Notes: generated from the sequence alone by a model not told the origin. A stretch of 21,671 nt of DNA from a virus (IMGVR_UViG_3300027865_000299:1-21671); one strand, 5' to 3'; positions 1 through 20,947 are shown, counted from the first letter of the stretch. Translations and numbers: made by a program.

Positions 1-2783
1 TCCCAGTAACCCGCGCTGTTCGCCACCACCGTAATCGTCACGCTGGGCACCAAGTCGGTGGACGTGTAGAACATATCGCTACCCGTCAAAGTTACTTTGA
101 CCTTGGCACCCTCCAGAGCCACGTTGTTCTTCTCGGCCCAGTCATTGAGGGTGGTCATCTGGACACCCGGTGTGGTGTTGGTGGCTGCGAGATCGTAGCC
201 CTGAGTGCTATCGGTGTAACCACCCCCACCAGCGTCAGTTGTCATGGTATCGTTGGAAGCCCAGATGTAACCTGTTCCCGTACCCGTGACCAAGTAATCT
301 GTGCTGGCGTCAAGGTTCCAGGTCGTCAAGCCGTCAGAGTCAGTGAATTGCTTCACACCTACCTGTACACCCGCTTTGGTGGATACGGTGATACCCTGCC
401 AGGCCACGTTGGCGTTGGTACCGGATGTATCGACAGCGTAGATAGTGACGGTCTTAGCCCCACTTCCAAACCCGCCGCCAGTTGTCCACGCCGCATCACC
501 CCGATCACGCAATGCCTCAAGGGCGTCCGTGGTGTTGTCGAACCCGGACCAGTCACCGTCCGATGAAGCCATTTCGGCTAAGATCGTGGCGTTTACAACG
601 TCATCGGCATCGGCGGTTAGGGCGAGGTGGTCCAGTCTCAAGGAATCATGGGCTTCGTCAACCTGTGTTCGGACCTGTGCAGCCGTTGCGCCCGACCCCC
701 CCGATCCCGTCGCCTCGTAACCGTACTTGACGAGATCATAATGCCCTGTGGTGTCTTCGTTCCATACGGCGTCAGCGATGTTGACCGCCAGCCCAGCCGT
801 GTCGGATAAGGGGAATAGGGACGAAACATCAGCCTTGTAATCTCCGGGTGTCGTAAGATCGCGTGTAACGGGACCATCCCATACGGAATCTGCGGTATTC
901 GCTAAAAGTCCACTGGCAGCACTGGCGGAAGATACATCAACGATCACCGAGTCCGTCGTGTTATCAAAGAGTGACGCTTCAAGTGCCAATGCGGAGACAT
1001 CGGCTTTGTAATCACCCGGAGTGGTGAGATCCCGTGTGAGACCACCATCCCAAACCGAATCGGCAGTCTTTGCCATCAATCCATCCGCTGCCGCAGCGGA
1101 GGAAACATCTACGATCACTGAGTCCGTTGTTGGATCGTACAAAGAAGCCTCAAGCGCCAGAGAGGACACATCAGCCTTGTAGTCACCGGGTGTTGTCAGG
1201 TCACGGGTGAGACCACCGTCCCATACCGAATCGGCAGCTTTAGCCAACAGCCCATCGGCAGCACTGGCCGACGAAACGTCTACAATCACTGAATCCGTCG
1301 TCGGGTCGTACAGAGATGCCTCAAGAGCCAACGCTGATACGTCAGCTTTGTAGTCACCTGGAGTGGTGAGATCGCGGGTCAAACCCCCATCCCACACTGA
1401 GTCGGCGGCCTTTGCAAGTAGGCCATCAGCGGCAGTGGCCGACGAAACATCAACTATCACTGAGTCTGTTGTGTTGTCGAAGAGCGACGCCTCAAGAGCT
1501 AAGGCCGATACATCAGCCTTGTAGTCGCCGGGCGTTGTGAGGTCGCGTGTTACAGGACCATCCCACACAGAATCTGCGGCGTTCGCCAAAAGTCCGCTGG
1601 CGGCACTTGCGGAAGATACGTCCACGATGACGGAATCGCTGGTGGGGTCAAAGTTGTTTAGTGCCGCAATGTCAGTCTCAGCCTGTGTAGAATTTGTCAC
1701 CGTCGCAAGGGTGCCCGTGATATTTGCATCAATGTCTGCTGTGGTACCGTCAATCTCCAGTCCGTCACCGCTGGCAGCATTGATATCGACACCGTTACCA
1801 CTCGTAGATGCGATAGTGACGCCGTTTCCACTTGTTGCACCGCCATCAATTTGGAGACCTACCCCCGTGCCACCCACGGGGTCTGCTTGCATACGAACCG
1901 CCGCCCCAGACCCATCACCAATAAAGTGTAGACCCTTTCCGTTACTTCCGTCTGAGGCCAACCCTACGATACCACTACCACTACCAGAACCACCTATCGC
2001 TATAAGGCCATGACCCGCCCCTGCCTGTGAACTCCATAGTACCAAAGCGGTGTCTTGCGCGCCGGAAGTCTTGACGTTGATGCTCGTTAACCAGAGCGGG
2101 TCAGCCCGTGATCCACTGGCACCGTCGAACGCCTTTTCGAGATTGGTGGCGGCAGCGGCAGTGCCGTCGATAGCCGTGACATCAACACCCGTAGCTTCCT
2201 GCGCCACCCAATCATCTTGGTTTTGTAGAGTATCGAGAACCGCGTTTACAGTGTCTACGATCAAGGTTTGGTTGGCGCTTGTTGCGACCCATCCATCCTG
2301 AAGCTGTAATGTGTCAAGAATCGCATTCGCTGTGTCGGCAAGTGCATCAGCCCAAGTCGTGAACGCAGCGGTCTCGTATAACTGGAACTCACCGTGATGG
2401 GGTGTGTGGAGACTAAGGGACACGTCATGTACGATCAGTGTGTACTTGTACGTTCCCTGTTGTGGCGTAGCGTCAATCGCAGCAACGGAGTTGAAGTAAG
2501 TGTTCGACCCACCACCAGCGTAATCTGCCCACGTCTCTGAAACGATCTGCGCATTGTTTCCGGCGATGGAGTCCCTGAAGGCCAGCTTACCACCAGGATA
2601 GAACACCATAAGATATACGGAATCTCCGGCGACGATATCCACAGGGTTACCGAGGGTGTCAAGCGCCGTGAAGGTTATCCCTATGGAATCTTCCGACGTT
2701 GTACCCGTGTTGTTGTAGATCCCCGCCTGTGCCGACACCGATAGCGCCAGCACCCACACTGCCACCAAGACAAACCGTTTCAT
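1..2783 (-). CDS. Exported giant tail fibre with tandem 57-residue repeats (partial, runs off left edge)
   Basis: The frame is open from ATG 2781-2783 (ribosome site AAGGAG) to the window edge, giving at least 927 residues without a stop; the C-terminus is missing. It begins MKRFVLVAVWVLALSVSAQA-G, a textbook signal peptide. Domains in order: a beta domain (about 20-125); two 27-residue helical repeats (AILDTLQLQDGWVA / AVLDTLQNQDDWVA, about 145-190); a Gly-rich short-repeat region (GHGLIAIGGSGSGSG… SGNGVTIASTSGNGVDI, about 245-345), like fibre beta-helices; five 57-residue repeats (about 375-655); then DALEALRDRGDAAW and a peptidase-regulatory/Ig-like beta domain (KTVTIYAVDTSGTNANVAWQ… DGLTTWNLDASTDYLV, about 775-850). 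The repeat motif ADSVWD…TRDL resembles the VWDE…GHTTAG modules frequent in phage tail proteins. I infer a host-binding fibre. Confidence 0.7.
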   Translation of the reverse strand, partial: MKRFVLVAVWVLALSVSAQAGIYNNTGTTSEDSIGITFTALDTLGNPVDIVAGDSVYLMVFYPGGKLAFRDSIAGNNAQIVSETWADYAGGGSNTYFNSVAAIDATPQQGTYKYTLIVHDVSLSLHTPHHGEFQLYETAAFTTWADALADTANAILDTLQLQDGWVATSANQTLIVDTVNAVLDTLQNQDDWVAQEATGVDVTAIDGTAAAATNLEKAFDGASGSRADPLWLTSINVKTSGAQDTALVLWSSQAGAGHGLIAIGGSGSGSGIVGLASDGSNGKGLHFIGDGSGAAVRMQADPVGGTGVGLQIDGGATSGNGVTIASTSGNGVDINAASGDGLEIDGTTADIDANITGTLATVTNSTQAETDIAALNNFDPTSDSVIVDVSSASAASGLLANAADSVWDGPVTRDLTTPGDYKADVSALALEASLFDNTTDSVIVDVSSATAADGLLAKAADSVWDGGLTRDLTTPGDYKADVSALALEASLYDPTTDSVIVDVSSASAADGLLAKAADSVWDGGLTRDLTTPGDYKADVSSLALEASLYDPTTDSVIVDVSSAAAADGLMAKTADSVWDGGLTRDLTTPGDYKADVSALALEASLFDNTTDSVIVDVSSASAASGLLANTADSVWDGPVTRDLTTPGDYKADVSSLFPLSDTAGLAVNIADAVWNEDTTGHYDLVKYGYEATGSGGSGATAAQVRTQVDEAHDSLRLDHLALTADADDVVNATILAEMASSDGDWSGFDNTTDALEALRDRGDAAWTTGGGFGSGAKTVTIYAVDTSGTNANVAWQGITVSTKAGVQVGVKQFTDSDGLTTWNLDASTDYLVTGTGTGYIWASNDTMTTDAGGGGYTDSTQGYDLAATNTTPGVQMTTLNDWAEKNNVALEGAKVKVTLTGSDMFYTSTDLVPSVTITVVANSAGYW
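822..1653 (-). repeat. Five tandem repeats of 171 bp (57 residues) in the partial fibre gene
   Basis: The minus-strand motif TACAA, which ends the codons for DYKAD in each unit, recurs at plus positions 835, 1006, 1177, 1348 and 1519, exactly 171 bases apart. Each unit encodes FDNTTDSVIVDVSS…GLLAKAADSVWDGGLTRDLTTPGDYKADVSALALEASL-type sequence with few substitutions, although many third codon positions differ. The two outer units share GPVTR and ASGLLAN; the inner three share GGLTR and ADGL(L/M)AK. A shortened degenerate copy (DTAGLAVNIADAVWNEDTTGHYD) follows on the C-terminal side at about 725-825. Confidence 0.9.
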
Positions 2784-2792
2784 CGTTTCTCC

Positions 2793-3023
2793 TTATTCTA
2801 CCGGCGCGATGGGGAACGCCTTCCCCACCCAATCGGTCACAATATCGCCCGCCGCCGCCTGAATTGTTTTTAGTGCCTCTACCGCATCCAACTCAGTCGT
2901 ACTCTGTTTTGCAGAACCGACCTCGATAAACGAGGTGCTGGTTATGGGCCGCACCACCTCTACCGTGTAGTAACTCGGCCCCTGCGTGATTTTCACTTCC
3001 ACTGTCAAACTTGCTGTCGGCAT
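2793..3023 (-). CDS. Small conserved-looking hypothetical protein between two fibre genes
   Basis: The protein has 76 residues. The ATG at 3021-3023 is preceded by AGGAGAGGAG, one of the strongest ribosome sites here, so I regard it as real although it overlaps the current 938-residue frame by 131 bases. It has a beta-type N-terminal half (ASLTVEVKITQGPSYYTVEVVRP) and a helical C-terminal half (DAVEALKTIQAAAGDIVTDWVGKAF). It has no signal peptide, Cys or membrane segment. It ends 9 bases before the start of the next large fibre. The function is unknown. Small proteins between fibre genes are sometimes fibre-assembly chaperones or trimerisation partners, but nothing in the sequence proves this. 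Confidence 0.7.
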   Translation of the reverse strand: MPTASLTVEVKITQGPSYYTVEVVRPITSTSFIEVGSAKQSTTELDAVEALKTIQAAAGDIVTDWVGKAFPIAPVE

Positions 3024-5709
3024 CCGTGTTCTCCTCTCCTAAGATTATCTTGCGACGCCGGGGATTGACCCCCCCGGCAGCTGTTGATGTATCCGTTACC
3101 CAGATTCGCAACTGAGAAGCTGTCGCGATAGTAGCCGTGAACGGGAATGTGTTGTTGACCTTCTGGCGGTTCTTCGTTGCCCCAGATTTGATTATATGCA
3201 GGACTGAGAAGCCGTTCATCCAAGTGCAGGTATCGGATGTTCCGTCTGTCTGCATGGCTTTTGCCCAGGTTGTAACATCGAAGTGCCCCGTGGTCTCTTC
3301 GGCTATTTTACGAGGCATTATGTCGCGAAGAGTGTCATTCCAATCGGTACCGGGGGTGGTTCGGGTAGCCCCGCCATCCCTGCCACCCGCCGAGTCCCAA
3401 GCGTTCTGAAACAGGGGAGACGCCAAATTACACCCCGAACGGGTTGAGTCCGTTCGGTAGGCGCCATCAGTGAAGCATGAGGTAATGGTCGACCGCGCCG
3501 TTGCGTAGATACTGCCAGTGTGACCCCAGCGGAACACCCGCACCGAGTCGCTGGCCCGCCTGCTAAAAAATAGCGACGCAGAGTCGGCAGAGACGGTCCC
3601 GCGATCATAGAGGGAGGAGTAGTAGGGCATGAAGATAGCCGAGTCGATCCTGTCTGTGGTCACGGGGAACCGGCTCGATATCACACTGGAATCCCTTAGC
3701 GCGAAGTAGTATGAGGTGCCGAAGTCGTTGGTCTCGGGAACTGAGAGTATGGACCTTGCTGACGCACCGTCATAGTTTGAACCAACCCCGATACCGGTGT
3801 AGTGCATGATGAGGATGACTTCTGTCGTATCATCAAAGGCGTGGCAGTCCTTGTCAGCACCGCCCTCGCAAGTAATGGCGTTCGTCAGTGCCCCCGTGGT
3901 AGTGGTGTGTATCTCGATCCACGTAGAGTCTGCCCCCGAGAAGGGTGGCACGTTACCGAATGTCATGCTCTGCTGTGTGGTAGAGTCCTCCCCTAAAGGG
4001 AAGAGGAACTGAAACCCATTGTATTCGTTTCTGGCGTTCCCCTGGGCCGTCGCCATGTTCACCCAAAACTCCGTTATCTCAATCTTATGGAGGGTATTTG
4101 CCGAGAAGGTGACGGTATCAAGGGCAGTTGCCACGTAGTCGAACCCCCCTCCGCTATCCGCACCTGCCTTATTCCAATCAGCCCCGGCCCCGTACCACGC
4201 CGCCCAGGTAGCGCTGGAGTCAGCAGCGGATTGGTCTGCCGTGGCCCAATTAACTGCGTATCCATAGCCACTACCGGAGGTGTCCTGTGGTATCAGGTCT
4301 CTCGGCTCCATGTAGCCGGGTGTACCAACCGCGGAGTCGGTCATCGTGTAGAGAAATACGCTGTCGATCCATCTTCCGCCCGCGCCGCCCGGAGGGACAC
4401 CCACACTATCGAGATTGCGTATTGCGAACACGACGCGGTTGATGGAACCGCTTTTCGACCCAAATATTTCACACCAAAACCGGAATAGGTGGATTTCGGT
4501 GAAACTGTCCGGTGCATTGAGGTTCTGTGCCCCTCCCTCCATAGCACCAACGTTTGTTACCGAGAGTCCAGTGATGGGCTTTGTGATGAAAGTCGTGGCG
4601 GACGTGGTGAAGCGCACCGTGTCGAACGCGGCATCCGTCCCCGATGTATCAAAGTAGATTATAACGTCCTCGAAACCATTCCCGGTGTGTAACCCACGCA
4701 CGTGGAACCGAACAGAATCAATGGCATCAAAGTTCGCCTCGGTGACACCAAAATCGACGTAAGTTCTTCGGTTCGCGGGCGATACCCCTTGCGGAACTTT
4801 CCAGTAGTCTGTGTCGCCGCCGTCTACGTTCACCAATTGCGCGAAGTTAGAGTCCGTGTGAGACTTTTGCCAGTCCGTTGTCGGTGAGTCTCCGTTGGCA
4901 TCGGGGTGGGCGGAGTCAGTCACAGCCGCGTACCCGATCCCACCTCCCATCTCAAGGAGCGAGTCGGTCCATTCATCGTCCTCTGTGCCGCCAGCGGCGT
5001 CGTCACTCATTTGCCCCATCAGGAAGTCAAGGGTATCGTCGTAGACCAGATGGTCGGTGTTCACCGTCGAGAAGATGGTGTAGATCGACATCGTGTAATC
5101 ATCGAGAGTGCTCTCCACCATCGGGTCAGGCCAAGTGCCGAAGGTCTCGTTGTCGGTGTATACGGTATCGCCCGAAGAGGCAGTGTTGAGCCGTACCTGT
5201 ATTGCATACCCGGCGTCCCCCTCACACCAGACGACCGCCACGAATGTCGTGTCACTATCCAGTTTGGGACGGTCGGGATGTGCATCGAACGCCAGAGCGA
5301 ACCAGCCATCATCGTCGTTGGAGGTGTCTATCGTTATCGTGTTTGTCGAATCTACGAGGGAGGGGGTTCCCGCCGCATAGTTGTAGATCGCACCCTTGAC
5401 GTCCCCCGTTTCAAGATCGGTGAAGTCGGCGAAGGTCAGGTAGACGTAGAGGGTGTCGGCGTACCCGTCCTCGGTCATAGTGAAGCGTTCACCGATTATG
5501 ATGTCCTCGGCGGATGTGTTGGTCGCTTCGGTAGTCCAGTTACCGAGCGAATCCAGCGTCGAGAATCCATAAGAGAACGCCCACGCCTCGCCGCCCATCG
5601 TGAGAGCGACGAGGATTACCACCAACAGGAGAAGGGGTCTCCTTATACGGATCGGCGCGTGTCTCCAATTCGGCTCAAAGAGGTATAGCAGTATATCGTA
5701 GATAATCAC
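2893..5709 (-). CDS. Large exported beta-rich tail fibre/receptor-binding-like protein, C-terminus doubtful
   Basis: The frame encodes 938 residues. The start is a GTG overlapping the methyltransferase TGA (GTGA). After a 22-residue basic segment there is a signal peptide core (PLLLLVVILVALTMGG) with an AWA-F site near residue 44. The mature part is Asp/Thr/Ser/Gly-rich and beta-stranded, with several jelly-roll-like segments. A stretch at about 690-870 (TDRIDSAIFMPYYSS… ADSASLFFSRRASDSVRVFRW… TGHFDVTTWAKAM) resembles DNRLRE-type carbohydrate-associated domains. This suits a receptor- or glycan-binding fibre. The last 50 or so residues (after GGVNP) are basic, differ in character and overlap the next gene; a one-base loss in a G7 run at 3069-3075 would instead end the protein at 3045. 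The fibre role is inferred. Confidence 0.6.
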   Translation of the reverse strand: MIIYDILLYLFEPNWRHAPIRIRRPLLLLVVILVALTMGGEAWAFSYGFSTLDSLGNWTTEATNTSAEDIIIGERFTMTEDGYADTLYVYLTFADFTDLETGDVKGAIYNYAAGTPSLVDSTNTITIDTSNDDDGWFALAFDAHPDRPKLDSDTTFVAVVWCEGDAGYAIQVRLNTASSGDTVYTDNETFGTWPDPMVESTLDDYTMSIYTIFSTVNTDHLVYDDTLDFLMGQMSDDAAGGTEDDEWTDSLLEMGGGIGYAAVTDSAHPDANGDSPTTDWQKSHTDSNFAQLVNVDGGDTDYWKVPQGVSPANRRTYVDFGVTEANFDAIDSVRFHVRGLHTGNGFEDVIIYFDTSGTDAAFDTVRFTTSATTFITKPITGLSVTNVGAMEGGAQNLNAPDSFTEIHLFRFWCEIFGSKSGSINRVVFAIRNLDSVGVPPGGAGGRWIDSVFLYTMTDSAVGTPGYMEPRDLIPQDTSGSGYGYAVNWATADQSAADSSATWAAWYGAGADWNKAGADSGGGFDYVATALDTVTFSANTLHKIEITEFWVNMATAQGNARNEYNGFQFLFPLGEDSTTQQSMTFGNVPPFSGADSTWIEIHTTTTGALTNAITCEGGADKDCHAFDDTTEVILIMHYTGIGVGSNYDGASARSILSVPETNDFGTSYYFALRDSSVISSRFPVTTDRIDSAIFMPYYSSLYDRGTVSADSASLFFSRRASDSVRVFRWGHTGSIYATARSTITSCFTDGAYRTDSTRSGCNLASPLFQNAWDSAGGRDGGATRTTPGTDWNDTLRDIMPRKIAEETTGHFDVTTWAKAMQTDGTSDTCTWMNGFSVLHIIKSGATKNRQKVNNTFPFTATIATASQLRIWVTDTSTAAGGVNPRRRKIILGEENTDADSKFDSGSENHAGAELLHGRGGAAHNQHLVYRGRFCKTEYD
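3031..3040 (-). promoter_or_regulatory. Ribosome binding site of the 76-residue gene
   Basis: The minus-strand sequence AGGAGAGGAG lies 7 bases ahead of the ATG. It sits within the current 938-residue reading frame, which is one of the reasons to suspect that the larger gene really ends before it, at the TAA at 3045-3047 in the alternative frame. Confidence 0.65.
3069..3075 (-). other. G7 homopolymer, candidate frameshift site
   Basis: Seven Gs on the minus strand fall within the codons for AAGG-V near the end of the 938-residue frame. Deleting one G (or the equivalent ribosomal slip) changes the end to AAGGSIPGVAR followed by TAA at 3045-3047, a stop sited just ahead of the next gene's ribosome site, as elsewhere in this operon. 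Adding one G leads instead to a frame that runs to about 3005. Confidence 0.5.
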
Positions 5710-6320
5710 TTGCGCCCCACTAAGTACCGTTGCCCGTAGCGTTCTTCATCACTGAGTAAGGATAACCCCGCCGCCTCGAACGCGGCTGGGTAGTCGTGGT
5801 TGAAGTTATGACCGGCGTCACATTCCCCTGATGGCGCAGTGATAACTGCAAACCGGCCACCTGGTCGCAGCACCCGCACGATGTCCATCAGCATCGCCAG
5901 AAGATTCTCGGGCTTGATGTGCAGGAGGACTTCACAGGAGGCCACCACGTCACACGCGCTACTTGAGAGCGGCAAGATGTTAGGGCCACTACCGTTCGGG
6001 CAAACAACGATAACACCGGGGTCAACCTGTTGTGCCACAGCCCGTTGTGACTCAGCTATGTCGTAAGCGTAGACATGCGGAATATCAGCCCACACGGGAA
6101 ACATCCGGCCAGTGCCACATCCAAAGTCCAATAGGCGATTCACGGGAGCCGCTTCCTCGATGGCCCGTCTAAAGAAGTTCACCTGAGAAACGACACGATC
6201 AACAGGGATCGCATTACCGAACTTCACATAGGAATCACCACCTCTTCGGTCCCAGTACCGCGGGGGATTGTAAGGCAAGAGTTTGGCCCGCACACACTTA
6301 TCGTAGAGCCGGTCGATCAT
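5706..6320 (-). CDS. Class I SAM-dependent methyltransferase
   Basis: The protein has 204 residues and its ATG overlaps the holin stop. It transfers a methyl group from S-adenosylmethionine to an unknown acceptor. The fold's signature elements are present in order: motif I LLDFGCGTGR (63-72) binding SAM, the acidic end of strand 2 in AYDIAES (85-91), CDVVASCEVLLHI (123-135) and RVLRPGGRFAVIT (149-161). The C-terminal part is short. It lacks the DPPY/NPPF motif of DNA N-methyltransferases and the PC motif of cytosine-5 enzymes, so a DNA-modifying role is not supported. Similar small enzymes act on sugars, lipids or small molecules. Being sandwiched between holin and fibre genes, it may modify a virion or envelope component, but this is only context. 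It ends in a GTGA overlap with the next gene. Confidence 0.85.
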   Translation of the reverse strand: MIDRLYDKCVRAKLLPYNPPRYWDRRGGDSYVKFGNAIPVDRVVSQVNFFRRAIEEAAPVNRLLDFGCGTGRMFPVWADIPHVYAYDIAESQRAVAQQVDPGVIVVCPNGSGPNILPLSSSACDVVASCEVLLHIKPENLLAMLMDIVRVLRPGGRFAVITAPSGECDAGHNFNHDYPAAFEAAGLSLLSDEERYGQRYLVGRK

Positions 6321-6601
6321 CCGACCTTCTTTGCCTTGACAGCCCCAGCAACATGCTCAACCGCATTGCCACCGATATACACCGCCGCCAGTTTGAGCAG
6401 CCATTCTGAGGTCGACTCCCATTGCGCAGGCTCCATACCAAGTTGAGTCATCACGCTGCCCAGTAGGGCCATCCCAGCCACCAGCCAGAGTTTCCTTGAT
6501 TTGAGCTTATCCATACTTCCCTCCTTCTGTAGAACATCGACGACGGGCTTGGCCTTTCGCCACGTCTTATACATGCGGGCGTATTTACCAAGACCCAGCA
6601 C
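6317..6601 (-). CDS. Holin-like two-helix membrane protein with possible dual start
   Basis: The long form has 94 residues from a GTG one base after the previous stop, with only a weak ribosome site. An internal ATG at 6512-6514 has a far better one and gives a 65-residue form (MDKLKSRKLWLVAG…). The short form has two hydrophobic helices (LWLVAGMALLGSVMTQLG and WLLKLAAVYIGGNAVEHVAGAV) around a short polar turn and a basic C-terminus (KAKKVG). This is the size and layout of class II holins, which permeabilise the inner membrane at lysis. The 29 extra residues of the long form are basic (eight Lys/Arg), as in holin/antiholin dual-start genes. The stop overlaps the methyltransferase ATG (ATGA). 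Either start, or both, could be used. Confidence 0.65.
   Translation of the reverse strand: MLGLGKYARMYKTWRKAKPVVDVLQKEGSMDKLKSRKLWLVAGMALLGSVMTQLGMEPAQWESTSEWLLKLAAVYIGGNAVEHVAGAVKAKKVG
6518..6526 (-). promoter_or_regulatory. Strong internal ribosome binding site of the short holin form
   Basis: Minus-strand AAGGAGGGA lies three bases before the internal ATG at 6512-6514. It is one of the best ribosome sites in the window, whereas the upstream GTG start has only AAAGGT. It therefore decides for the 65-residue form as the main product, or supports two products from one gene. Confidence 0.65.
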
Positions 6602-6602
6602 G

Positions 6603-7106
6603 TCACTTACCTTTCTTCAGTACAATCGCCTGAATGTCAGTGACCGCCATGCCGATGTGAATAGCCCAGGAGAAACGATCACCAGCGTCATACGCTGAGG
6701 CATAGATGAATGGCGAAATGTACTCCGTCATGGCGAGCGAGAACCCACCCCCAGCCGTGAACGCCGCCACGTTCGATCCGTCCGCCTCTGCGGCCAGATC
6801 GAATGCCACACCGATGTCGGTCATCAGATACCACGGCTTACCAGCAGCCCCCGAGACGAGCAATGCCTTCAGACCATCCCCACCTTCGCCGCCATTCATG
6901 CCGACGTGCTGGTATGTCAGGTAAACTGCCGTCTTCTCCGACACCCCCAGACCACGCATCCCCATCCAGTAGTTCGTGAAATGCGCGCCCTTGTCCTCAA
7001 CCGTCGCACCGTACCCAGTGGACCCAGCCCCGATGGTCAGGGGCATCTTCGCCATCGCTGGCACCGCCAGCACCAATGTCACGATTGCCACTACGATTGT
7101 TCGCAT
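6603..7106 (-). CDS. Small exported beta-rich protein, possible outer-membrane barrel
   Basis: The protein has 167 residues, with a strong GGAGGAAGC site before the ATG. Residues 1-19 are a clear signal peptide (MRTIVVAIVTLVLAVPAMA, cleavage AMA-K). The mature 148 residues alternate polar and hydrophobic residues in strand-like stretches separated by Gly/Asp-rich turns (TNYWMGMRGLGV, TAVYLTYQHVGM, YLMTDIGVAFDLAA, AAFTAGGGFSLAM, ISPFIYASAY, FSWAIHIGMAV). That pattern and size suit a small outer-membrane barrel of about eight strands. Against this, the C-terminus is LKKGK and lacks the usual terminal Phe/Trp. No phage lysis or structural family was recognised. It lies between the coiled-coil membrane protein and the holin. 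A role in envelope modification, superinfection exclusion or lysis would be guesswork. Confidence 0.55.
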   Translation of the reverse strand: MRTIVVAIVTLVLAVPAMAKMPLTIGAGSTGYGATVEDKGAHFTNYWMGMRGLGVSEKTAVYLTYQHVGMNGGEGGDGLKALLVSGAAGKPWYLMTDIGVAFDLAAEADGSNVAAFTAGGGFSLAMTEYISPFIYASAYDAGDRFSWAIHIGMAVTDIQAIVLKKGK

Positions 7107-7115
7107 GCTTCCTCC

Positions 7116-7526: not shown

Positions 7527-7534
7527 CGCTCCTC

Positions 7535-10500: not shown

Positions 10501-11335
10501 TCGGGAATTCACGCGAAAACCGTCCCGCCACTTCACGCCCTATCGCCTCCTCGTAGGCCACTTTCCGGCGAACCTCTCCAGCCCGGAATGCCTCTAAATC
10601 CGTCTCAAATGCTATGCGCTGGGAACGAGCCCTGTACCGCTTCGCAAGAGCTGGTCCGGCTTTCACGAAACCCAAGAGCATCAAAGCAGCGAATGTCGGA
10701 CCAAGTGGATCTTCGTACAATTCAGCCCTGGCGATACGTTGCTGCTTTCTCTCTTCTGCTGTGTGAGCAGGAGCGAATACCTTATAAGCCAATATCGCCT
10801 GGTGCGGTATAACCTCCAGCATTGATTTCAGGGTTCCCTTTGGGTCGCGTTTCAGCGCCTCCGGCAAACCAACAAGCCCCGCCAAGGCATAGGTCAACGA
10901 CCGACCGATATTGCGAACAAAACCAACACCCTGCATGACGCCACTGGCGTTGGAATCGAAGTCGGTTCCTATCTCATCAGCGACTTCCATGAGTGATTCA
11001 CTGGCAATTCCGCTAACAGCAGCCGCGCCAGATATCCCGGTTAGTTTCATCAGGAGGGGGTCTTGTCCGGCTTCTTCAACTTTCTCACCGACGATACCCC
11101 CAACAGTCTTCTGTTCAGGGGTCGGTGACGAGGGCGGAAAGAAACGCCAACCATGCGGATCCCACTCATCCTGAGACGCAACCCCCAGACGCTCAAACAA
11201 CTTCGCCGCCTTCCGTGCCATCGGGTGATCCGTAGGCCGTGGACGGTCAGGGACTGTATCTGCGAGCGCAGTCCCTATATCGTAGGGGTCTTCAGAATAC
11301 GCGCCTATATCGTATAGGTCACTCGGTTGCGGCAT
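7535..11335 (-). CDS. Giant internal virion / DNA-ejection protein (gp16-like position)
   Basis: The protein has about 1266 residues from ATG 11333-11335 (MPQPSDLYDIG…). An ATG at 11366-11368 is in frame but would overlap the previous gene by 50 bases; both ribosome sites are weak. The length is close to T7 gp16 (about 1,300 residues), the last and largest ejection protein. Visible parts are an N-terminal domain with amphipathic or hydrophobic stretches (SLTYALAGLVGLPEAL, PTFAALMLLGFVKAGPAL at about 150-225), a Pro/Gly-rich linker (about 280-430), then a long helical region. Late segments (FFNLPKTRWLGYLKRFTRQQALMA… AAAGGLLGGDLMMYLRR) resemble the helical membrane-associated parts of large polyvalent/ejection proteins. 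I could not find the N-terminal lytic transglycosylase of T7 gp16. The stop is followed at once by a strong GGAGGAG site for the next gene. Confidence 0.6.
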   Translation of the reverse strand: MPQPSDLYDIGAYSEDPYDIGTALADTVPDRPRPTDHPMARKAAKLFERLGVASQDEWDPHGWRFFPPSSPTPEQKTVGGIVGEKVEEAGQDPLLMKLTGISGAAAVSGIASESLMEVADEIGTDFDSNASGVMQGVGFVRNIGRSLTYALAGLVGLPEALKRDPKGTLKSMLEVIPHQAILAYKVFAPAHTAEERKQQRIARAELYEDPLGPTFAALMLLGFVKAGPALAKRYRARSQRIAFETDLEAFRAGEVRRKVAYEEAIGREVAGRFSREFPKPQPNVPTIADVGGRTQTLGGEFGPKVPQKPITDPARMLPPPEGVGEGFTFKDASRSKRIPESQAERGMFGGPGVGETAFPSGTREMRHHPAGGVPKRSLGTAPPGNIMDALAAAKVNKAVELKPGVSVKPAPYKPPQYQPFLRSGVFTKIKHLDEAKTKPGQPSIMESASPIIDAIDNSGKAFVDVKAWTKRSSNDGGRWRDILRDSENRVKSPESKALVHAHIDRNRRANVNLGNLAEDLSELAVSRGRKFKGLNEITIQEAMAIPEVRNFMEGIGIDLSNRGVQSLIPLTDQLGTTLKIAKRKTENKPPRTVKEIEAARVKLLEQGIDYQVAETAGKYIVRPFKLSQEFLTDGPRRWNDKISKAIWEDVSGTNQSAHVLAEGSGHKGNAASLLGTIDRMARDARWSPATKKAITRLTHPVTGIVDTPGQALQWLFEESSAQRFRRHGTEFGRTANLFPDEWRETNAKTVLMRYMNEVAHTMADTEIFGPSRQILTNMLDDIKSNAPGEFKMISDLSDASMGVIDKSQPLSRMAQRAQKGYSTYVYGTKIGLGFAPIIQISQPAISFMMDAGWSRGVRGSFRALNPTYRAFLRRQGVIGPTAFRRQIGAGDAGLLEKVPTLKLMEFLNRQLDYASAATGEIFARDLYGIANRETSGLRAILRPRVKWARETLKDRFDIDYKKPLGDAEFVRMTQDYAAYMNHHPNVWREPAFFNLPKTRWLGYLKRFTRQQALMASHVIRGDLKRGNALPLIRAAAGGLLGGDLMMYLRRQLFEGFGGKEDIHPEGDFVTDDVVRFFLSRGDFPTGAVLQRGALVGTLGIYGDFGWSNEDDPAKQFQGIAENLEFSVLPVAASDVINWARMGKETLGNINKSFRGTEKQQEAMPLGEVGLRLAEDMTTLWGSYGYHVSSRWQSNETELKKNKQKYQSVLKKARRAYWDGDEDRAIAFMNEWNEKKHYYPMEENDREAVHYMRFGEITDRSHEDEFK

Positions 11336-12749
11336 CGTACGTTTTCCATCCCATTTCATCGAACACATCTTCGATGTCTAACTGTAGGCTGGCGTAAACC
11401 CCTCTGTAAAATTGGTAATTGGCGACTACGAACGCACGGTCATAGGCGTTCCCTCTGATACTCTCAGCCGCTTTCTTCAAACGATCCTCATAGGCTATAA
11501 CATCGTTTGGTTCAGCAGTATCCTGACTCTCACGGAAATACTTGCGCGTGGTTTTGGCAGTTTCGATTTCCTCCGACATCACACCATTGAACAATCGGCT
11601 ACGGACCTCAGCCCTGAGTAAACTATTCGGACTATTCTTGTCGAAGCCCTCACGCGCCCACAGCGCCATCGTCCCCTCAAGTGCGCTATGAAATTCTTGG
11701 AGCTTCTTGTACCCCGCCTTCTCGAAAGACGCTCCAGGTGGAACCAATGTTACAAGCTCCTCAGCAAACGGCGCACCCGCAAACGGACCCTGAACGTCCC
11801 TATGCTCAATGACACCCTCGGAGAAGATCACCTTATCCAGTTCCTTCTCGATCTCCTTGAATCCCTCACTGTCCTTGTACGTCATTTTGAACATCGTAAA
11901 CATATTGCCGCCACCCGGTGTGTAGAGGTCGGAGATTATACCCTGCGCCGTTATCTCCTGCTGTGAGGTCAGAAGCCCCTTGGCACCCTTCTCCACGTCG
12001 AGCTTGCCCATCTTGTCCAAATTAGCAATGAAGCCCTGCCACTGCTTCGTACCAACGATTCCAGGTGTCTGTGTTTCCGCAGACAATAGCAAACGCCCCG
12101 CCTCTTCCGGGCCAGCATCTTCCAGTAGCTTCCCGATCTCCCCAATCTTCTGTTGCGCTACTGCCTCGTTAGCCGACATCTCCATGGTGCGTAACTCAGC
12201 AGGAGTCACAGCGTCCGCCTTGAGCTGTTCAACTTCCCTGCGGAGGTTATTCTTCTCATCATCACGCATCGTCTCGTAGATCTGGTCCGTTTGCCTCTGA
12301 ATGTCCGCCTGGCTCCACGAAAGAACATGCTTCTGTGCCACCTCCGGGATATCACCAAGGAGACTCTGAGCCTCCGCCAACCGCGAAAGTTGAAGATTCG
12401 GATTTCCAATAGCATCCTCAGCGTAGATTGAGTTCATTATCCCCTTGATTCCACCTGCGGTCTCGCCATACTGAGTCTGATATCCAGAGATTTTCCCCGC
12501 CTCTGCTCCAAGCGTCAGATCGACTTTGTGTTTGGCTAAGTCCTTGGCGTCCTGAACTGCAGCTACCCGTGACTGCTCACGTTCCTTCCGTTCCCGCTCT
12601 GCCCGCTCATCCTCCCGCCGATTCTCAATCATCTTCCAGAAGAAATCACCAATCTTCTCCATCCCCTTATTGCGGGACTCCATCTTCGCCAACCGCTTGT
12701 ACGCTGGCCGGAACTTCTTGGCAATGTCCATCGCCGTATTGTTAGGCAT
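11319..12749 (-). CDS. Internal virion protein, helical (gp15-like position)
   Basis: The protein has 476 residues from ATG 12747-12749, which has GAGG six bases upstream; a TTG four codons earlier is open but lies within that ribosome site. The product is almost wholly helical and charged, with a strong coiled-coil-type segment at about 30-80 (NRREDERAERERKEREQSRVAAVQDAKD region) and others through the middle (NNLRREVEQLKADAVTPAELR). It has no signal peptide, membrane segment or catalytic motif. It lies between the 897-residue and about 1266-residue proteins, matching the position of T7 gp15, the helical middle component of the DNA-ejection core. The final codons overlap the beginning of the next gene. 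The role is inferred from order and composition, not from a recognised domain. Confidence 0.55.
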   Translation of the reverse strand: MPNNTAMDIAKKFRPAYKRLAKMESRNKGMEKIGDFFWKMIENRREDERAERERKEREQSRVAAVQDAKDLAKHKVDLTLGAEAGKISGYQTQYGETAGGIKGIMNSIYAEDAIGNPNLQLSRLAEAQSLLGDIPEVAQKHVLSWSQADIQRQTDQIYETMRDDEKNNLRREVEQLKADAVTPAELRTMEMSANEAVAQQKIGEIGKLLEDAGPEEAGRLLLSAETQTPGIVGTKQWQGFIANLDKMGKLDVEKGAKGLLTSQQEITAQGIISDLYTPGGGNMFTMFKMTYKDSEGFKEIEKELDKVIFSEGVIEHRDVQGPFAGAPFAEELVTLVPPGASFEKAGYKKLQEFHSALEGTMALWAREGFDKNSPNSLLRAEVRSRLFNGVMSEEIETAKTTRKYFRESQDTAEPNDVIAYEDRLKKAAESIRGNAYDRAFVVANYQFYRGVYASLQLDIEDVFDEMGWKTYDAATE

Positions 12750-12766
12750 GACGGTCCTCAATCATT

Positions 12767-15460
12767 TCATTCATACGGTCGCCCGTAGTTATTGGCGGCG
12801 TTATCAGCAACCGCACCCGCCGCACCACCCGCAGCAGCCCCCGGAGGACCACCAAACACAAAGCCCAGAACAGGAAGCAGGTCAGCCGTGAAGTTCAGCC
12901 AATCAGTTTCCCCACCCGCCTCGATTTCCGCCAGCATAACTTCCAGTTTCGCCTTGTCCACATCGTGCTGATTATTCACGGCCATCCGTCGTATAGCATT
13001 GCTGACGGTATCAAGATCAATTCGCTCACCAGCAACCCACGCCTCCAGATCTATCCTCGCCATACCGAGCTTGTCTTGAATCTCAAGATCCGTGGCCTTC
13101 AGCATGAAATCATTGATCTGCTGTGTCGCCTGCAACTGATACATCCGATCCGAATCAATCACCGACAAATCGAATTCGCCCTTCTCGATCATCTGGTCGA
13201 ACGCTGTCTTGTCTACCGTAAGACCAAACTCCGCCTCAAACTGCTTGAGCATATCTTCTTGCTTCTTTTCATCTAAGGCTAAATAATCTTCCTTAATCTC
13301 CATCGCACGTTCGGCCAACGTATTGCCCTGGTCATTCTTAACCTCTTCCAATTTCTGGCTCTGTGTGACAGCGTAGAAATTCTGATTGGCTACATCACGG
13401 TTAAGCTCCTGCCCCTCGAACGTGAAGACATTCTCGGCCCGCTGCTTCTCGCGACCAGTCTCGATACCCGCCGCATTTAATGCGGCTTGCAATTTCTCAG
13501 TGCGGAGATTGTCTTGGGCACGAGCCACTTCCAACTCAAACATTATCTCGCCCTGAGCAATGGCTTTGACCGTCCCACTGCTCAGTCCCATCCCCGCCCC
13601 TGACAGCTTCGACACAGCCGCCTGGATACCCTTGTCCATCCGTGATCGAATCGCACCCTTTTCTTCACTGGACAACTCAGGGTCCCAATCCATCACTTTG
13701 TCGAGGAACTCGTTCACCTTCTTATTCTGACCGAGATTCTCAATATCCTCCGCAGTCGCACCCTCTAAGAGACTCTCGCTTGCCAAGCTGCCAAGGTCAT
13801 CAATAAATGCCTTATAGTCTTCCGGGCTGGTCTCAGCACTGAACGTCGTGCCCTCGCCCAAATCACTCTCGGCAGTAGAGGCTTCAGGGGTAACGTCACC
13901 TCCGGTCTCACCCGCGTCACCCTCTCCATCAGGATCCAACCGTTCACCAGCAGAGCCTTCCTCTACATTCGTCTCTACAGCATCACCGAGTTCATCTTGG
14001 CCGGTAGTTGTTCCACCCTCCGGGGTCTGGTCCTCCGGTATCTCCGTTGACTCTAAACCGTCCGGCCCTCGCAACCCCGCCTTCTGGTCAGGCGGAATAC
14101 TGGTACCGATAATGGACTTCTGCTTCTCCTGAAGTTCCTTGATGGCTTCTTCTATGGATGACTTCGCCCTGAAGTCCTCCTCAGACATCTCTCGCGTAGT
14201 ACCATCGCTTGTAGGACCACCACCCTCTCGGTTGGCCTTCTCACTCCTCCCTTCCCAGCCGTCAATCAAATCAGTAATCTGCTGATTGATATCATTCCAC
14301 TGATTCTTCGATTCTCCCTCAAGCCAGTCGGGGGCATCGAATATGTCGTGCTGAGGAAAGATGTCCTCAATCGCGCCCTCTTGAATGATCTCCCCGGTCT
14401 CCTTGTCCCTCACACTGAACCGAGACTCACCAATAGGCTGGGCGTTCGGTGACGTGTAGGTGCGACGCCTAACGGGCGTTGTACCACCATCTTTCCCGGC
14501 AGTGGCCCATTGGTCCTCGGTCAACTCACCGCCTGGAATACCAACGTCTCGCTCAGGAGTGGTCCCCTCCTGCCCCCGGGATTTCTGGGTGCGTCCCTCT
14601 ACGGTCTCTATGGGTTCAAATCCACGATCTTCGATACTATCACGAATGTCACCGCTACCCGGAGGATCACCTGCCGCGCTAACCCCACCTCCCGCGAGAA
14701 TGTCCTCCTGTGCTGTACCACCACCAGCACCTTGCTGACGCTGAAACTCTTGCTGCAATGCAAGTTGCTGTTTTTGAGCAGCCCCCGGAGCAAGACCGAA
14801 TTGCTTTTCATAGGCCGCTTGGTCTTGTGCCGCCTTCTGCCTCTGTTGCTCCGGGCTTCTCACCATTTGATCTTGCAGTCGACCAGAGGTCCATTCAGCA
14901 AAGGATTGGCCCCCCTCCGGTATAAGCCCCGACTCCAGTAGAAATTGTTTCTTACCCTCAGTCGTACCGATGCCACCCGGAGTCTTGCCGCCCAATTGCT
15001 GCTGCTTTATGCCCAGCAACTCTTCCTGCGCTGTGCCACCCTGTGCAGCAAACTTCTGAGTATTCAACTCCATCTGTTGCTTTAGACCATCTCCAGTACC
15101 ATCCTGAGCCGAGAGCTTCTGCTCCATATCCACCACCTGCTGTCGGGACGTGGTAGCAACATCACCTGCACCACCACCTTGGGCAGCAAACTTTTGAGCA
15201 TCCAGCTCCATCGCCTGTCCCGTTGTATTAACGGGAGCACCGGGACTCTGCAACCGTGATTGCATGCCCAATATTTCTTCTTGCGCTGAAGTCGCTCCCC
15301 CACCCCCAGGGGACTGCTGCATTTCCAGCATCTTCCCTTTCGCCCGCGCCGGGTCAGGCACAGCCGCCGGAGCCGGAGCTACCGCTGTCTGCGCAGCACC
15401 ACCGTCAATGATGTCTTCGGTTGCCGTGCGCTTCTTTTTCCTAAATGGATTGGATGGCAT
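12767..15460 (-). CDS. Large internal virion / ejection protein (gp14-like position) with degenerate N-terminal repeats
   Basis: The protein has 897 residues from an ATG preceded by AGAGGG. After a basic start (FRKKKR), residues 11-260 hold degenerate Gln/Gly-rich repeats such as SAQEEILGMQSRL (58-70), TSRQQVVDMEQKL (104-116), TAQEELLGIKQQQL (143-156) and TAQEDILAGG (249-258), plus two copies of QKFAAQGG 46 residues apart. An acidic Glu/Thr/Gly-rich middle (about 440-560) is followed by a long helical domain (about 560-850) and a hydrophobic Gly/Ala-rich tail (LLPVLGFVFGGPPGAAAGGAAGA) that could insert in a membrane. T7 gp14, a much shorter inner-core protein, is the outer-membrane ejection component. 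Order and the membrane-active tail suggest an analogous role. There is no signal peptide. Its assignment as an ejection protein is inference. Confidence 0.55.
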   Translation of the reverse strand: MPSNPFRKKKRTATEDIIDGGAAQTAVAPAPAAVPDPARAKGKMLEMQQSPGGGGATSAQEEILGMQSRLQSPGAPVNTTGQAMELDAQKFAAQGGGAGDVATTSRQQVVDMEQKLSAQDGTGDGLKQQMELNTQKFAAQGGTAQEELLGIKQQQLGGKTPGGIGTTEGKKQFLLESGLIPEGGQSFAEWTSGRLQDQMVRSPEQQRQKAAQDQAAYEKQFGLAPGAAQKQQLALQQEFQRQQGAGGGTAQEDILAGGGVSAAGDPPGSGDIRDSIEDRGFEPIETVEGRTQKSRGQEGTTPERDVGIPGGELTEDQWATAGKDGGTTPVRRRTYTSPNAQPIGESRFSVRDKETGEIIQEGAIEDIFPQHDIFDAPDWLEGESKNQWNDINQQITDLIDGWEGRSEKANREGGGPTSDGTTREMSEEDFRAKSSIEEAIKELQEKQKSIIGTSIPPDQKAGLRGPDGLESTEIPEDQTPEGGTTTGQDELGDAVETNVEEGSAGERLDPDGEGDAGETGGDVTPEASTAESDLGEGTTFSAETSPEDYKAFIDDLGSLASESLLEGATAEDIENLGQNKKVNEFLDKVMDWDPELSSEEKGAIRSRMDKGIQAAVSKLSGAGMGLSSGTVKAIAQGEIMFELEVARAQDNLRTEKLQAALNAAGIETGREKQRAENVFTFEGQELNRDVANQNFYAVTQSQKLEEVKNDQGNTLAERAMEIKEDYLALDEKKQEDMLKQFEAEFGLTVDKTAFDQMIEKGEFDLSVIDSDRMYQLQATQQINDFMLKATDLEIQDKLGMARIDLEAWVAGERIDLDTVSNAIRRMAVNNQHDVDKAKLEVMLAEIEAGGETDWLNFTADLLPVLGFVFGGPPGAAAGGAAGAVADNAANNYGRPYE

Positions 15461-15494
15461 GTTACCCTCTACTCATTAGTATTGTTTTGGGAAA

Positions 15495-16529
15495 TTAATT
15501 TAACGGCCAAGACCAGGGAATGCGCCATATCCCAACAACTTGCCAAGACAATACTCTCGCCGTCGCACTATACTCTATGCCAACAACGAACGATGTGTCG
15601 GTAACCGAAACCAGCCACAAGGAATCAGTGAAGTAATTGGCCGCATCTGGACCCCACTCAAGATTGACACTCGCATTTATGCTACTCCATACGGGCCAGC
15701 CCGCTGGATTCACGTTTCCTTTGGGGTCAGTCCAGATGGCGCCCCCACCCGATTTCGCACCGCCATGAAGGGCCGAATACGTCGAGGCAAAGACTATGGT
15801 ATCATGGGTCTGTTCGGTGTTTATGTCAACCCGACCGCCTTGAACGAGAGCTGGATTCGGGTACTGCTTCCCGACATAAGCACGGCGACTCACGTTAAGT
15901 GTGTCATTTTCAAGTGGGTTAAAACTCCAGATTGTTTCCCCACCCATCGTGGGGTCGCCCGAAGAACCGCCCGGAAGGTAATACAACGTGCTGGTTGGAG
16001 ACTCACTGGAGTCCAGTGTTCCAACCCAAGAAATGTCCAGTGAATCCCCACCCCCTCCACGAAAACGAAGAATGGGGGTCTCCATAAAAACAGGATCAGG
16101 TGTACAGGACGAAATGTTGTGGGCATCATCAATCGGCTTCGCCAGCAATTGAAATATCTGCGTATTGACAGTGACCGTTGGAGCCTCTTGCCCGCCCCAA
16201 TCATACCACGGATCACCCGTATCACACGTATCGGGCCACGTACACGCTTGAATCGTATCTAATCTCGCAAAGCAGTTCCCGTCAAAAACCGTATCAGCGA
16301 TGTAGTTGCAGAGCCGCAGATAGATTTCGTCAATGATCTGGTAGTTCATGTGATCGATGAACTCCCTCATAGCCGGGCGCAACGAATCGGGGAACCTTGA
16401 GTAATCGAATACCACGGGATACGGTTTCGGGGGACATGGCGGGACGCCCTCGTGGGATGTGTAGGACCACGCCCACGACGAACACAGAACAACAAGAAGA
16501 ATAATCACGATATCTCTACTCAGTTTCAT
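15495..16529 (-). CDS. Exported cysteine-containing probable tail protein
   Basis: The protein has 344 residues from the ATG at 16527-16529, with an AAGGA ribosome site 7 bases ahead and a gap of only 3 bases after the nozzle gene. The N-terminus (MKLSRDIVIILLVVLCSSWA, then a WS-Y site near residue 23) is a convincing signal peptide; the Cys at 16 could alternatively hint at a lipobox but lacks the usual small residues around it. Beyond the leader there are six Cys, mostly in the first 150 residues (PPCPP, LCNYI, GNCFA, QACTW, DTCDT, SSCTP), an even number compatible with disulfides in an oxidising compartment. The C-terminal half is beta- and Gly-rich and ends in WRIPWSWPLN. No family was recognised. 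Its position after the nozzle suggests a tail component. Confidence 0.55.
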   Translation of the reverse strand: MKLSRDIVIILLVVLCSSWAWSYTSHEGVPPCPPKPYPVVFDYSRFPDSLRPAMREFIDHMNYQIIDEIYLRLCNYIADTVFDGNCFARLDTIQACTWPDTCDTGDPWYDWGGQEAPTVTVNTQIFQLLAKPIDDAHNISSCTPDPVFMETPILRFRGGGGDSLDISWVGTLDSSESPTSTLYYLPGGSSGDPTMGGETIWSFNPLENDTLNVSRRAYVGKQYPNPALVQGGRVDINTEQTHDTIVFASTYSALHGGAKSGGGAIWTDPKGNVNPAGWPVWSSINASVNLEWGPDAANYFTDSLWLVSVTDTSFVVGIEYSATARVLSWQVVGIWRIPWSWPLN

Positions 16530-16532
16530 CGG

Positions 16533-18146
16533 CTAATCCTTGGCTAATCCCTTCATAGAACCCCGTATCTCCAGAGCGTTGATCTTCACCCGGAGGGAGT
16601 CGGTTACATCAATACGGAACTTCATAAGTGACCCCACGACATAATCCCGTAGGCGCTTGTTGTCCAGCCCCGGCGTACTGGTGGTGGTGATTGACGTTGT
16701 GTCCAGCGCGGTGTTGTCGTCACCGTACCAGGTAACCGTGAACACAGATGTATCCAACGCCGAAGAGTAGGTCAACACCCGCTCAAACTGTTTACGCTGC
16801 CATAACTCATTCAGAGGTGACAAGGCCGATACATAGTGAGCATTGGCGACCGTCCCAAAGTCGCTTTTGTAGGCGTCGCCGGGGTGCACGTAAAAGATAT
16901 CATGGTTCCCTGAAGACGAATCCCGCACAAAGATAAGCCGCTGGCCGTAATTGATCGAACCCATGAGCGGTTCACTGGCCCGGCCCGAATACTCATACCG
17001 GAGCATAAAGTGAGACTCTGCCTGCCCCAGCGTTGGCGTCACGGATGTAAGCTGGTACTTCCACCACACCTTCAGATCAAGATCATAAACGAACGTGCGG
17101 TACTCCTTGACCTTGGATTCATCCCCCGCTCCACCCCGCAGGGGGAGTGTCACCATGAGTCGATTGTTCACCACAGCCATCTTGAAGACCTTGGCGGTAC
17201 CAACTGACTGCACCAAAGAATCAGCGAACCAGAAATCTATGGGCTTGGAAATCTTCTGAACAGCGTTCCCATTGAACATATACACGCCATCCTCGGCCCT
17301 AAAGAAGTGCATGTTGTTCCACTGAACGACAGCCCCGTATCCATAGGCACCAATGTTGTCGGCAACCTTGATAACCTCCACCGGAACATTGGTCGTGGAG
17401 CTAATGAGAACCTTGTAGACCGCCCGCGTCTTGTAAACTACAAGATGACCCCCAAGCGGCAGAGCGTTGGTGATGATGTCCCCAGCGTCTCGGTCAATGT
17501 AGACGAACCCAGAATTGACCTTTGTATCTACCGAATCGAAGGTGATGTCAAACTCAGGTCGCCAATGGAGTTTGGTGTTGGTAGAGTCATCAATCCCGTA
17601 CCCGTAGATACGATCATTGTGCAAAAGGATGCGACGATAGGGCCACGTCCACATACTGTCCGTGAACAATGAAGTTGTATCCTTGGGGCTTGCCGTAAAT
17701 ATCTTGCTGCCGCTGGTATAGATGAGTGTGTCCTTGAAGACAAGGGCGGTCATATTCACGCCATCATCTACCGGACGCCCACCGTCAAAGTCTATCCAAC
17801 CATCACCGTTGCCAGTGTTGAAGTACGCACTTCCCCCCTGGATGATAATGACACGTTCGGTGTCGCTGTTGATCTGACAGATGTAGGCAAGGCGGATCTC
17901 TGTGCCCGCCGGATCTTCAAGGATGCGTTTGGTCCCCTCACGCTGCTGTATGAAGGTCCGCTCACCCTCTGTGCCGATATCAAAATTCATCATGTCCACA
18001 GGGGCAGACAGATCAGGGGAGAACGGCTCGTCAGAATCTATGCCCTTCCAGTTATAGAACTTGATGGTGAACTTCTCCTCTTGTACAATGAGACCCATCG
18101 ACAGGAAGGCCGCGATAACAACTACTGTGAAGATGAACCATCTCAT
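16533..18146 (-). CDS. Tail nozzle / DNA-stabilisation-type protein with N-terminal membrane anchor
   Basis: The protein has 537 residues. Its ATG overlaps the upstream stop (ATGA). Residues 1-21 are hydrophobic (MRWFIFTVVVIAAFLSMGL), with no clear AxA site before VQEEKF, so this is an uncleaved anchor or an atypical signal peptide. The rest is beta-rich. Near residues 54-75 it has NFDIGTEGERTF..REGTKRI, the opening typical of podovirus tail nozzle/tubular B-like and P22 gp10-like proteins (a line of the type 'N..v..eG..~.R.Gt'). Later segments read like propeller blades (ALVFKDTLIYTSGSKIF, HLVVYKTRAVYKV, GAVVQWNNMHFFRAEDGVYMFNG). Such proteins close the tail tip and hold the packaged DNA. 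It follows the two adaptors, as expected for a nozzle. The leader is anomalous for the family. Confidence 0.6.
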   Translation of the reverse strand: MRWFIFTVVVIAAFLSMGLIVQEEKFTIKFYNWKGIDSDEPFSPDLSAPVDMMNFDIGTEGERTFIQQREGTKRILEDPAGTEIRLAYICQINSDTERVIIIQGGSAYFNTGNGDGWIDFDGGRPVDDGVNMTALVFKDTLIYTSGSKIFTASPKDTTSLFTDSMWTWPYRRILLHNDRIYGYGIDDSTNTKLHWRPEFDITFDSVDTKVNSGFVYIDRDAGDIITNALPLGGHLVVYKTRAVYKVLISSTTNVPVEVIKVADNIGAYGYGAVVQWNNMHFFRAEDGVYMFNGNAVQKISKPIDFWFADSLVQSVGTAKVFKMAVVNNRLMVTLPLRGGAGDESKVKEYRTFVYDLDLKVWWKYQLTSVTPTLGQAESHFMLRYEYSGRASEPLMGSINYGQRLIFVRDSSSGNHDIFYVHPGDAYKSDFGTVANAHYVSALSPLNELWQRKQFERVLTYSSALDTSVFTVTWYGDDNTALDTTSITTTSTPGLDNKRLRDYVVGSLMKFRIDVTDSLRVKINALEIRGSMKGLAKD

Positions 18147-18829
18147 TGCTGAACCTGTTGCGGGCGACCAAGATACACGCCCTTCATGGCCAAATGGTCA
18201 GTCCAGTACCGATAGAAAAACCCCGCCGACTGAAGCTGTCTGTCGCGCATCATAACCATCGAGGCTGCCAGCATAACTACAGCCATCTCATCTTCTTCGG
18301 CCACGCTCATAGCTGAATCACTGGCCGCGAGGTCGATACCGATCTTGGTGTAGTAGACCAGCAGCGTATCATCACCATTCGGCGCTGTCCCCAAAATGAG
18401 ATTCTGTCCTTGCATGGAGTACCAAGCACCGGGAGACTGCGCACCCGTGGGGACCAACTGTTCAATGGGCAAGTAGCGCATAATCACTTCACCGCCACCA
18501 GACTCCGTGTTTTTGCGCTGAATAACGAGGGGCGGCGATCCCGACATGGCATCGGTGTTCAGAGCGTACCGAATGATGTTCGTGGAAGTAATCACCGTAT
18601 CCAGCGTCACCTTGGACTTATTCATCAGCGCCAACTGGGTTGTACGCTGGGCGTAGTTGAGGAACCGCGCTGCCGTGGTGTCGTCAAGAAACTTGCTCTG
18701 CGGCTCATTCACCGCATCCCGTAGGAAATATATCATTGACGCACGAGAACTATCCGTCAACTGCGCGTACACCGACGAAGGGGCAACCATCACCAACATA
18801 ACCGCCAATGCAAGAAGCCATCTCATCAT
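18143..18829 (-). CDS. Adaptor-like protein 2 with N-terminal signal peptide
   Basis: The protein has 228 residues from ATG 18827-18829, which overlaps the preceding TGA; a second ATG follows directly, and upstream in-frame GTG codons are poorer starts. It begins MMRWLLALAVMLVMVAPSS and reaches a VYA-Q site at about residue 22, a textbook Sec signal peptide. The mature part resembles the preceding gene in layout: a helical start (ARFLNYAQRTTQLAL), beta segments with ALNTDAMSG and WYSMQGQNLILGTAP…DDTLLVYYTKIG, then a helix with DEMAVVMLAASMVMMRDRQL. It is therefore probably a second connector/adaptor component, and the pair may be diverged paralogues. A signal peptide on such a protein is unexpected, because connectors normally assemble on cytoplasmic heads. 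The function is inferred from architecture and position only. Confidence 0.55.
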   Translation of the reverse strand: MMRWLLALAVMLVMVAPSSVYAQLTDSSRASMIYFLRDAVNEPQSKFLDDTTAARFLNYAQRTTQLALMNKSKVTLDTVITSTNIIRYALNTDAMSGSPPLVIQRKNTESGGGEVIMRYLPIEQLVPTGAQSPGAWYSMQGQNLILGTAPNGDDTLLVYYTKIGIDLAASDSAMSVAEEDEMAVVMLAASMVMMRDRQLQSAGFFYRYWTDHLAMKGVYLGRPQQVQQ

Positions 18830-19539: not shown

Positions 19540-19553
19540 CGCTAAGCCCCAAA

Positions 19554-19576
19554 TGGGGCGGGCCAAGCCCGCCCCA
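19554..19576 (-). terminator. Strong hairpin between capsid and first adaptor gene
   Basis: On the minus strand a perfect 10-bp stem (TGGGGCGGGC / GCCCGCCCCA, loop TTG) starts 12 bases after the capsid stop codon. It is followed by ATTTGGGG rather than a T-run, so it is not a textbook intrinsic terminator. It may act as a partial terminator, a stabiliser of the abundant capsid mRNA 3' end, or a processing site. A second, mutually exclusive hairpin is possible (GCCCC-ATTT-GGGGC, plus-strand 19546-19559), which reuses the 3' arm of the first and ends just before the next gene's start. Confidence 0.45.
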
Positions 19577-20883: not shown

Positions 20884-20947
20884 GTGGAACACTTCCCTTC
20901 TAATAAAGGGTCAATGTTACGACTGCTTACTACCGACCAAACAGGTA

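Follow-up and report, generated by a model that had tools for sequence, protein, structure and literature searches.

The SU10-type (Kuravirus) short tail is made up of the portal gp6, the adaptor gp11 and the nozzle gp17 (PMC9509320), and podovirus tail proteins are added one by one to the finished head (PMC3185693). In T4-type phages, head assembly begins at the inner membrane, on its cytoplasmic side, via gp20 and YidC (PMC9026906). Exported tail parts belong to neither of these routes. No report of connector or nozzle proteins with export signals was found in the literature searched, the coverage of which was partial, with subscription journals mostly outside it. The virus record IMGVR_UViG_3300027865_000299, analyzed here over its whole stretch of 21,671 bases (the window), carries 15 genes, all on the minus strand, in a reading order that begins with a scaffold gene (20948-21520) and ends with a fibre gene cut by the contig end (3-2783). 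Six of these genes start with a strong hydrophobic leader, namely those for the second of two adaptors (ad2; leader score 37.0), the nozzle (40.5), a 344-residue tail protein (t344; 40.0), a 167-residue protein (p167; 40.7) and two fibre-like proteins (fib938, 42.5; fib927, 36.3), and a sequence-only reading of the window had placed the leaders on the same six genes.

The leader score, a measure of our own with a small calibration set, rates the best hydrophobic core without charged residues close to the N-terminus. In the E. coli K-12 calibration, 17 of 27 exported proteins scored at least 30, and none of the 54 cytosolic ones did. Six of the window's 15 genes reach the same threshold, compared with none of 127 virion genes of nine tailed control phages (SU10, T7, P22, Cronobacter Ss1, Bacillus Pascal, Stenotrophomonas StenR_269 and three Manatee Spring records); Fisher's test gives p = 5e-7, a nominal value since the genes of one operon are not independent. 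The window scores (36.3-42.5) equal or exceed those of the E. coli exported proteins, and the leaders exceed the median E. coli signal in hydrophobicity. They have Lys or Arg ahead of the core and low net charge. Hydrophobic segments of other kinds occur in two further proteins, p136 (score 29.5) and p94, as would be expected of holin- or spanin-type proteins.

The only relative found among viral contigs, searched with the capsid, adaptor 1, nozzle, TerL and two DNA patterns, is IMGVR_UViG_3300031673_000904 (hereafter L002); scans of genome contigs found no relative. Identity between the window and L002 falls from 72% in the capsid and 55% in the scaffold to 50% in adaptor 1 (ad1), 31% in ad2 and 29% in the nozzle. 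The comparison of leader patterns thus covers two genomes, both fragments. The window ends short of the portal gene, and L002 has an SU10-type portal (57.9 bits, cut-off 30) and a TerL-like protein. Since both are present in L002, the lineage is taken as a phage, and a domesticated tail is ruled out. Three genes lie between the portal gene of L002 and the methyltransferase gene upstream of its scaffold gene (L002:4745-7806), an unusual insertion in a head module, and one of them has a faint match to glycosyltransferase 2 (E 0.04, below cut-off).

The head-side proteins of the window have no leader. The scaffold-like gene, which precedes the capsid gene, encodes no hydrophobic core; the major capsid protein (19588-20892; phrog_1357, E 2e-30) scores 7.8 and ad1 (18826-19566) scores 5.5. 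Three presumed inner proteins of 897 (12767-15460), 480 (11319-12761) and 1277 residues (7535-11368), recognized by position and size only, also lack a leader, with no strong core in the first and no core in the other two; the 897-residue protein matched no family above cut-off. Scores of all these proteins and of the methyltransferase encoded beside the fibres are at most 13.5 or undefined, which bears out the earlier statement that head and presumed inner proteins carry no leader. The names of the inner proteins, t344 and the fibres are assigned by position. Among annotated phages, no relatives of ad1, ad2, t344, fib938, fib927 or the 1277-residue protein were found, and sequence searches of the PDB gave no useful match. 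In L002, the capsid gene (L002:9314-10617) lies in two overlapping frames (9314-9796 and 9652-10617), a frame break that is either real or from assembly.

The change from leaderless to leader-bearing proteins is seen most closely at the two adaptors. In the window, ad2 (18143-18847) matches SU10_adaptor (PF24175) over residues 43-204 (E 2.5e-6, 28.5 bits, cut-off 27), and its leader, MMRWLLALAVMLVMVAPSSVYA followed by Q (18764-18829), sits ahead of this domain and outside it. Both adaptors of L002 match the same family, ad1 (36.1 bits) from residue 1 and ad2 (30.4 bits) from residue 47, past its leader. Because both belong to SU10_adaptor and ad2 alone has a leader, the adaptors serve as an internal control. 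Window ad1 had no direct SU10_adaptor match in Pfam and is linked through its L002 counterpart; no link between ad1 and ad2 emerged when their profiles were compared, and their relation rests on Pfam. With ad1 leaderless and ad2 leader-bearing in the window, and the same split in L002, the leader boundary falls between the two adaptors. The SU10 tail (PMC9509320) suggests, by analogy, an order of portal, ad1, ad2, nozzle and further tail proteins from the head outward, with ad1 presumed to be the adaptor that touches the portal. The AlphaFold model of ad2 is poor (pLDDT 37); a fold search with it had no hit at E <= 0.001 and is given no weight as evidence.

The cleavage-type position of ad2, A-Q in the window and G-Q in L002, occupies the same alignment column and, as far as such a motif can tell, favours export of ad2. 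The start of ad2 in the window may be GTG 18847 or ATG 18829/18826, and the leader is kept with any of them. Just past the leader, the codon for Met38 (window numbering) is also aligned in both genomes, and this might be seen as a second start, such that each gene would give a leader form exported for a role outside the virion, such as masking of the receptor, and a second form, translated from the internal start without the leader, that builds the virion. However, neither genome has a convincing ribosome site ahead of Met38, and an equivalent shared start is absent from the nozzle and t344, so we regard such a pair of forms as improbable.

The nozzle gene (16533-18146) is assigned by phrog_3287 (E 8e-13) and by Foldseek, and with the Pfam match of ad2 this upholds the nozzle and adaptor assignments proposed earlier. 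Its ATG overlaps the stop of ad2 by 4 nt, an overlap also present in L002. The best Foldseek matches of the nozzle model are the nozzles or tails of Pa223, VP1, SU10, GP4 and P22 (E 1e-10 to 2e-6); at a pLDDT of 39 and TM-scores of only about 0.2, they tentatively support the fold class (beta-propeller/platform), not the details. Modelling therefore agrees with the proposed nozzle at low confidence and gives no match for ad2. The nozzles of the window and L002 have about 20-25 extra N-terminal residues compared with the homologues L005, L007, L008, L014 and L015, most of which start about at the leader end, the alignment being approximate at such distances. On this alignment, the leader is an extra segment on tail proteins of the ordinary kind. 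The expectation that homologues share the nozzle leader thus holds for the close relative L002, but not for the very distant homologues, which lack it as ordinary tails would.

The nozzle leader, MRWFIFTVVVIAAFLSMGLIV (18084-18146), has a weak cleavage site (SMG) and is a possible anchor. That of t344 (gene 15495-16529, leader 16464-16529), MKLSRDIVIILLVVLCSSWAWS followed by Y, has a weak to middling site (WAWS). Because of these weak sites, both leaders could be anchors, and cleavage-type sites are good only in ad2, p167, fib938 and fib927. The protein t344 has six Cys after its leader and occupies the same place as the leader-bearing third tail gene of L002. As a sign of periplasmic folding, Cys content is suggestive only; it is high only in t344 and fib938, and no feature of the mature domains was a clear marker. 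In L002, the leader of the third tail gene (L002:13609-14181) contains LVAC, which fits a lipobox, and the protein might therefore be a lipoprotein.

The remaining three leaders belong to genes farther down the operon. The p167 gene (6603-7106) has a ribosome site, AAGGAGG, and a classical leader, AMA-K, and its product has no family match. The fibre-like fib938 (2893-5709), also with no family match, has the leader AWA-F after a long n-region, and its GTG start overlaps the stop of the preceding methyltransferase gene. The fibre-like fib927 (3-2783) has a classical leader, AQA-G, and the ribosome site AAGGAG. Within fib927, a segment of about 45 residues (TDSVIVDVSSA...TRDLTTPGDYKADVSALALEASL) recurs several times in near-identical form. 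The methyltransferase beside the fibres (5706-6320) is 26% identical to the one encoded ahead of the scaffold in L002 (L002:7793-8380). The leaders had been described as consecutive from adaptor 2; this is so for ad2, nozzle and t344, but the three leaderless inner genes and p136 precede p167 and the fibres.

In L002, leaders are present on ad2 (37.4), the nozzle (42.3) and the third tail gene (45.8), and absent from TerL, portal, scaffold, capsid, ad1 and the gene after the third tail gene. All three tail leaders are thus retained in the one close relative, at an identity of about 30%. Random mutation of the leaders of either genome down to 35% identity or below left 2.7-6.0% as hydrophobic in each of the three genes; since drift retains so few, the tail leaders are probably kept by selection. 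A composition-matched null might be taken as room for chance hydrophobic N-termini or wrongly chosen starts, because about 1% of spurious ORFs in the window (1 of 118) attain a score of at least 36. This explanation is nevertheless largely excluded by the count against the control phages, by the recurrence of leaders on the same three tail genes of L002 at drift odds of about 0.03-0.06 each, and by the starts, which are coupled to preceding stops or have ribosome sites (clear ones for L002 ad2 and the L002 third tail gene) and so rule out misplacement. The earlier judgement that the leaders are not chance is confirmed to this extent.

Leaders that start at ad2, with none on the head-side proteins, form the pattern expected of a cytoplasmic head and a translocated or membrane-held tail. 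Judging from sequence, we give about an even chance to the view that tail parts go through or into the inner membrane and that heads join them there or at lysis. With marginally less confidence, we propose that the virion is built in two compartments, with heads in the cytoplasm, tails in or facing the periplasm, and the joint between adaptor 1 and adaptor 2 made at the inner membrane or at lysis. In this scheme, the leaders would act as genuine Sec/SRP signals. The head components (portal, capsid, scaffold, terminase, adaptor 1 and the presumed ejection proteins) would stay in the cytoplasm, where heads would be made and filled. Translocation would apply to adaptor 2, the nozzle, t344 and the fibres, of which some would be cleaved and others might remain as membrane anchors, and tail assembly would take place in the periplasm or facing it. 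Filled heads would then meet tails at a membrane-held ring of adaptor 2 and nozzle, or once the holin opens the inner membrane. Some holins make very large holes, which would allow the latter. Export, cleavage, the place of tail assembly and the timing of joining are all inferred from the leaders and their distribution. Such a route requires heads and tails to be joined through the inner membrane or once it has been opened, for which no precedent was found in the literature searched.

The division between tail side and head side in the window, its repetition for ad2, nozzle and the third gene in L002, the AXA-type sites of p167, fib938 and fib927, and the shared cleavage-type position of ad2 all speak for translocation, whereas the poor cleavage sites of the nozzle in both genomes and the n-region of L002 ad2 speak against it. 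With a net charge of -2, the latter is unusual for a Sec signal. The nozzle sites, together with a nozzle leader of transmembrane-like length and the hydrophobicity of the leaders above that of the median E. coli signal, would also fit leaders of ad2, nozzle and t344 that stay in the virion as hydrophobic helices forming or lining a membrane-crossing channel, the signal peptides of p167 and the fibres being a separate matter. Uncleaved, membrane-piercing leaders and assembly at or across the membrane were the two mechanisms suggested by the sequence-only reading, whose interpretation is supported in part by the tail-side pattern. We consider this unlikely, though the strongest of the alternatives, because ad2 keeps its cleavage-type position, SRP/Sec would normally take such N-termini during translation, and the fibres carry classical signals too, though they line no channel. 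Somewhat less likely again is that the leaders hold the tail proteins at the inner membrane while the folded domain lies on its cytoplasmic side (N-out, C-in), as a platform for tail addition to heads inside the cell. The negative n-region of L002 ad2 does not favour N-in, and such a platform is comparable in place to T4 prohead assembly via gp20 and YidC (PMC9026906); however, Lys or Arg ahead of the core in the other leaders favours N-in with the domain outside, and the AXA-type sites of p167, fib938 and fib927 point to cleavage.

If translocation of the tail parts is true, a head-tail joint can form across the inner membrane or after its opening, and the switch in leaders between two adaptor-family proteins raises questions on how they are joined and on the timing relative to lysis. 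Oxidative folding of tail proteins also comes into question, given the Cys residues of t344. Should the leaders remain in the virion instead, they would be candidate membrane-crossing elements for a short tail.

Among known systems, SU10 is similar in that its adaptor family is found in window ad2 and both L002 adaptors, its portal type in L002, and its nozzle, gp17, among the low-confidence matches of the window nozzle model. SU10 virion genes, however, have no N-terminal leader, and in the window and L002 there are two proteins of the adaptor family, of which the second bears a leader. P22, GP4, VP1 and Pa223 resemble the window in giving the best Foldseek matches of its nozzle model and in having the nozzle directly downstream of adaptor genes, but P22 gp4 and gp10 lack a leader. 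In P22 gp7, the host OpdA cleaves the N-terminal 20 residues of a podovirus virion protein (record note); gp7 is, however, an ejection protein that scored as leaderless, and the ejection-like proteins of the window carry no leaders. The Inoviridae (PMC3185693) also anchor virion proteins in the inner membrane before assembly, although the filamentous virion is unrelated, has no capsid, portal or terminase, and is extruded continuously. T4 and SPN3US (PMC9026906) are tailed phages that likewise use the inner membrane as an assembly site. Unlike in the route proposed for the window, however, they start the head on the cytoplasmic face and their tail proteins are not exported, and the L002 portal, for its part, has no N-terminal leader.
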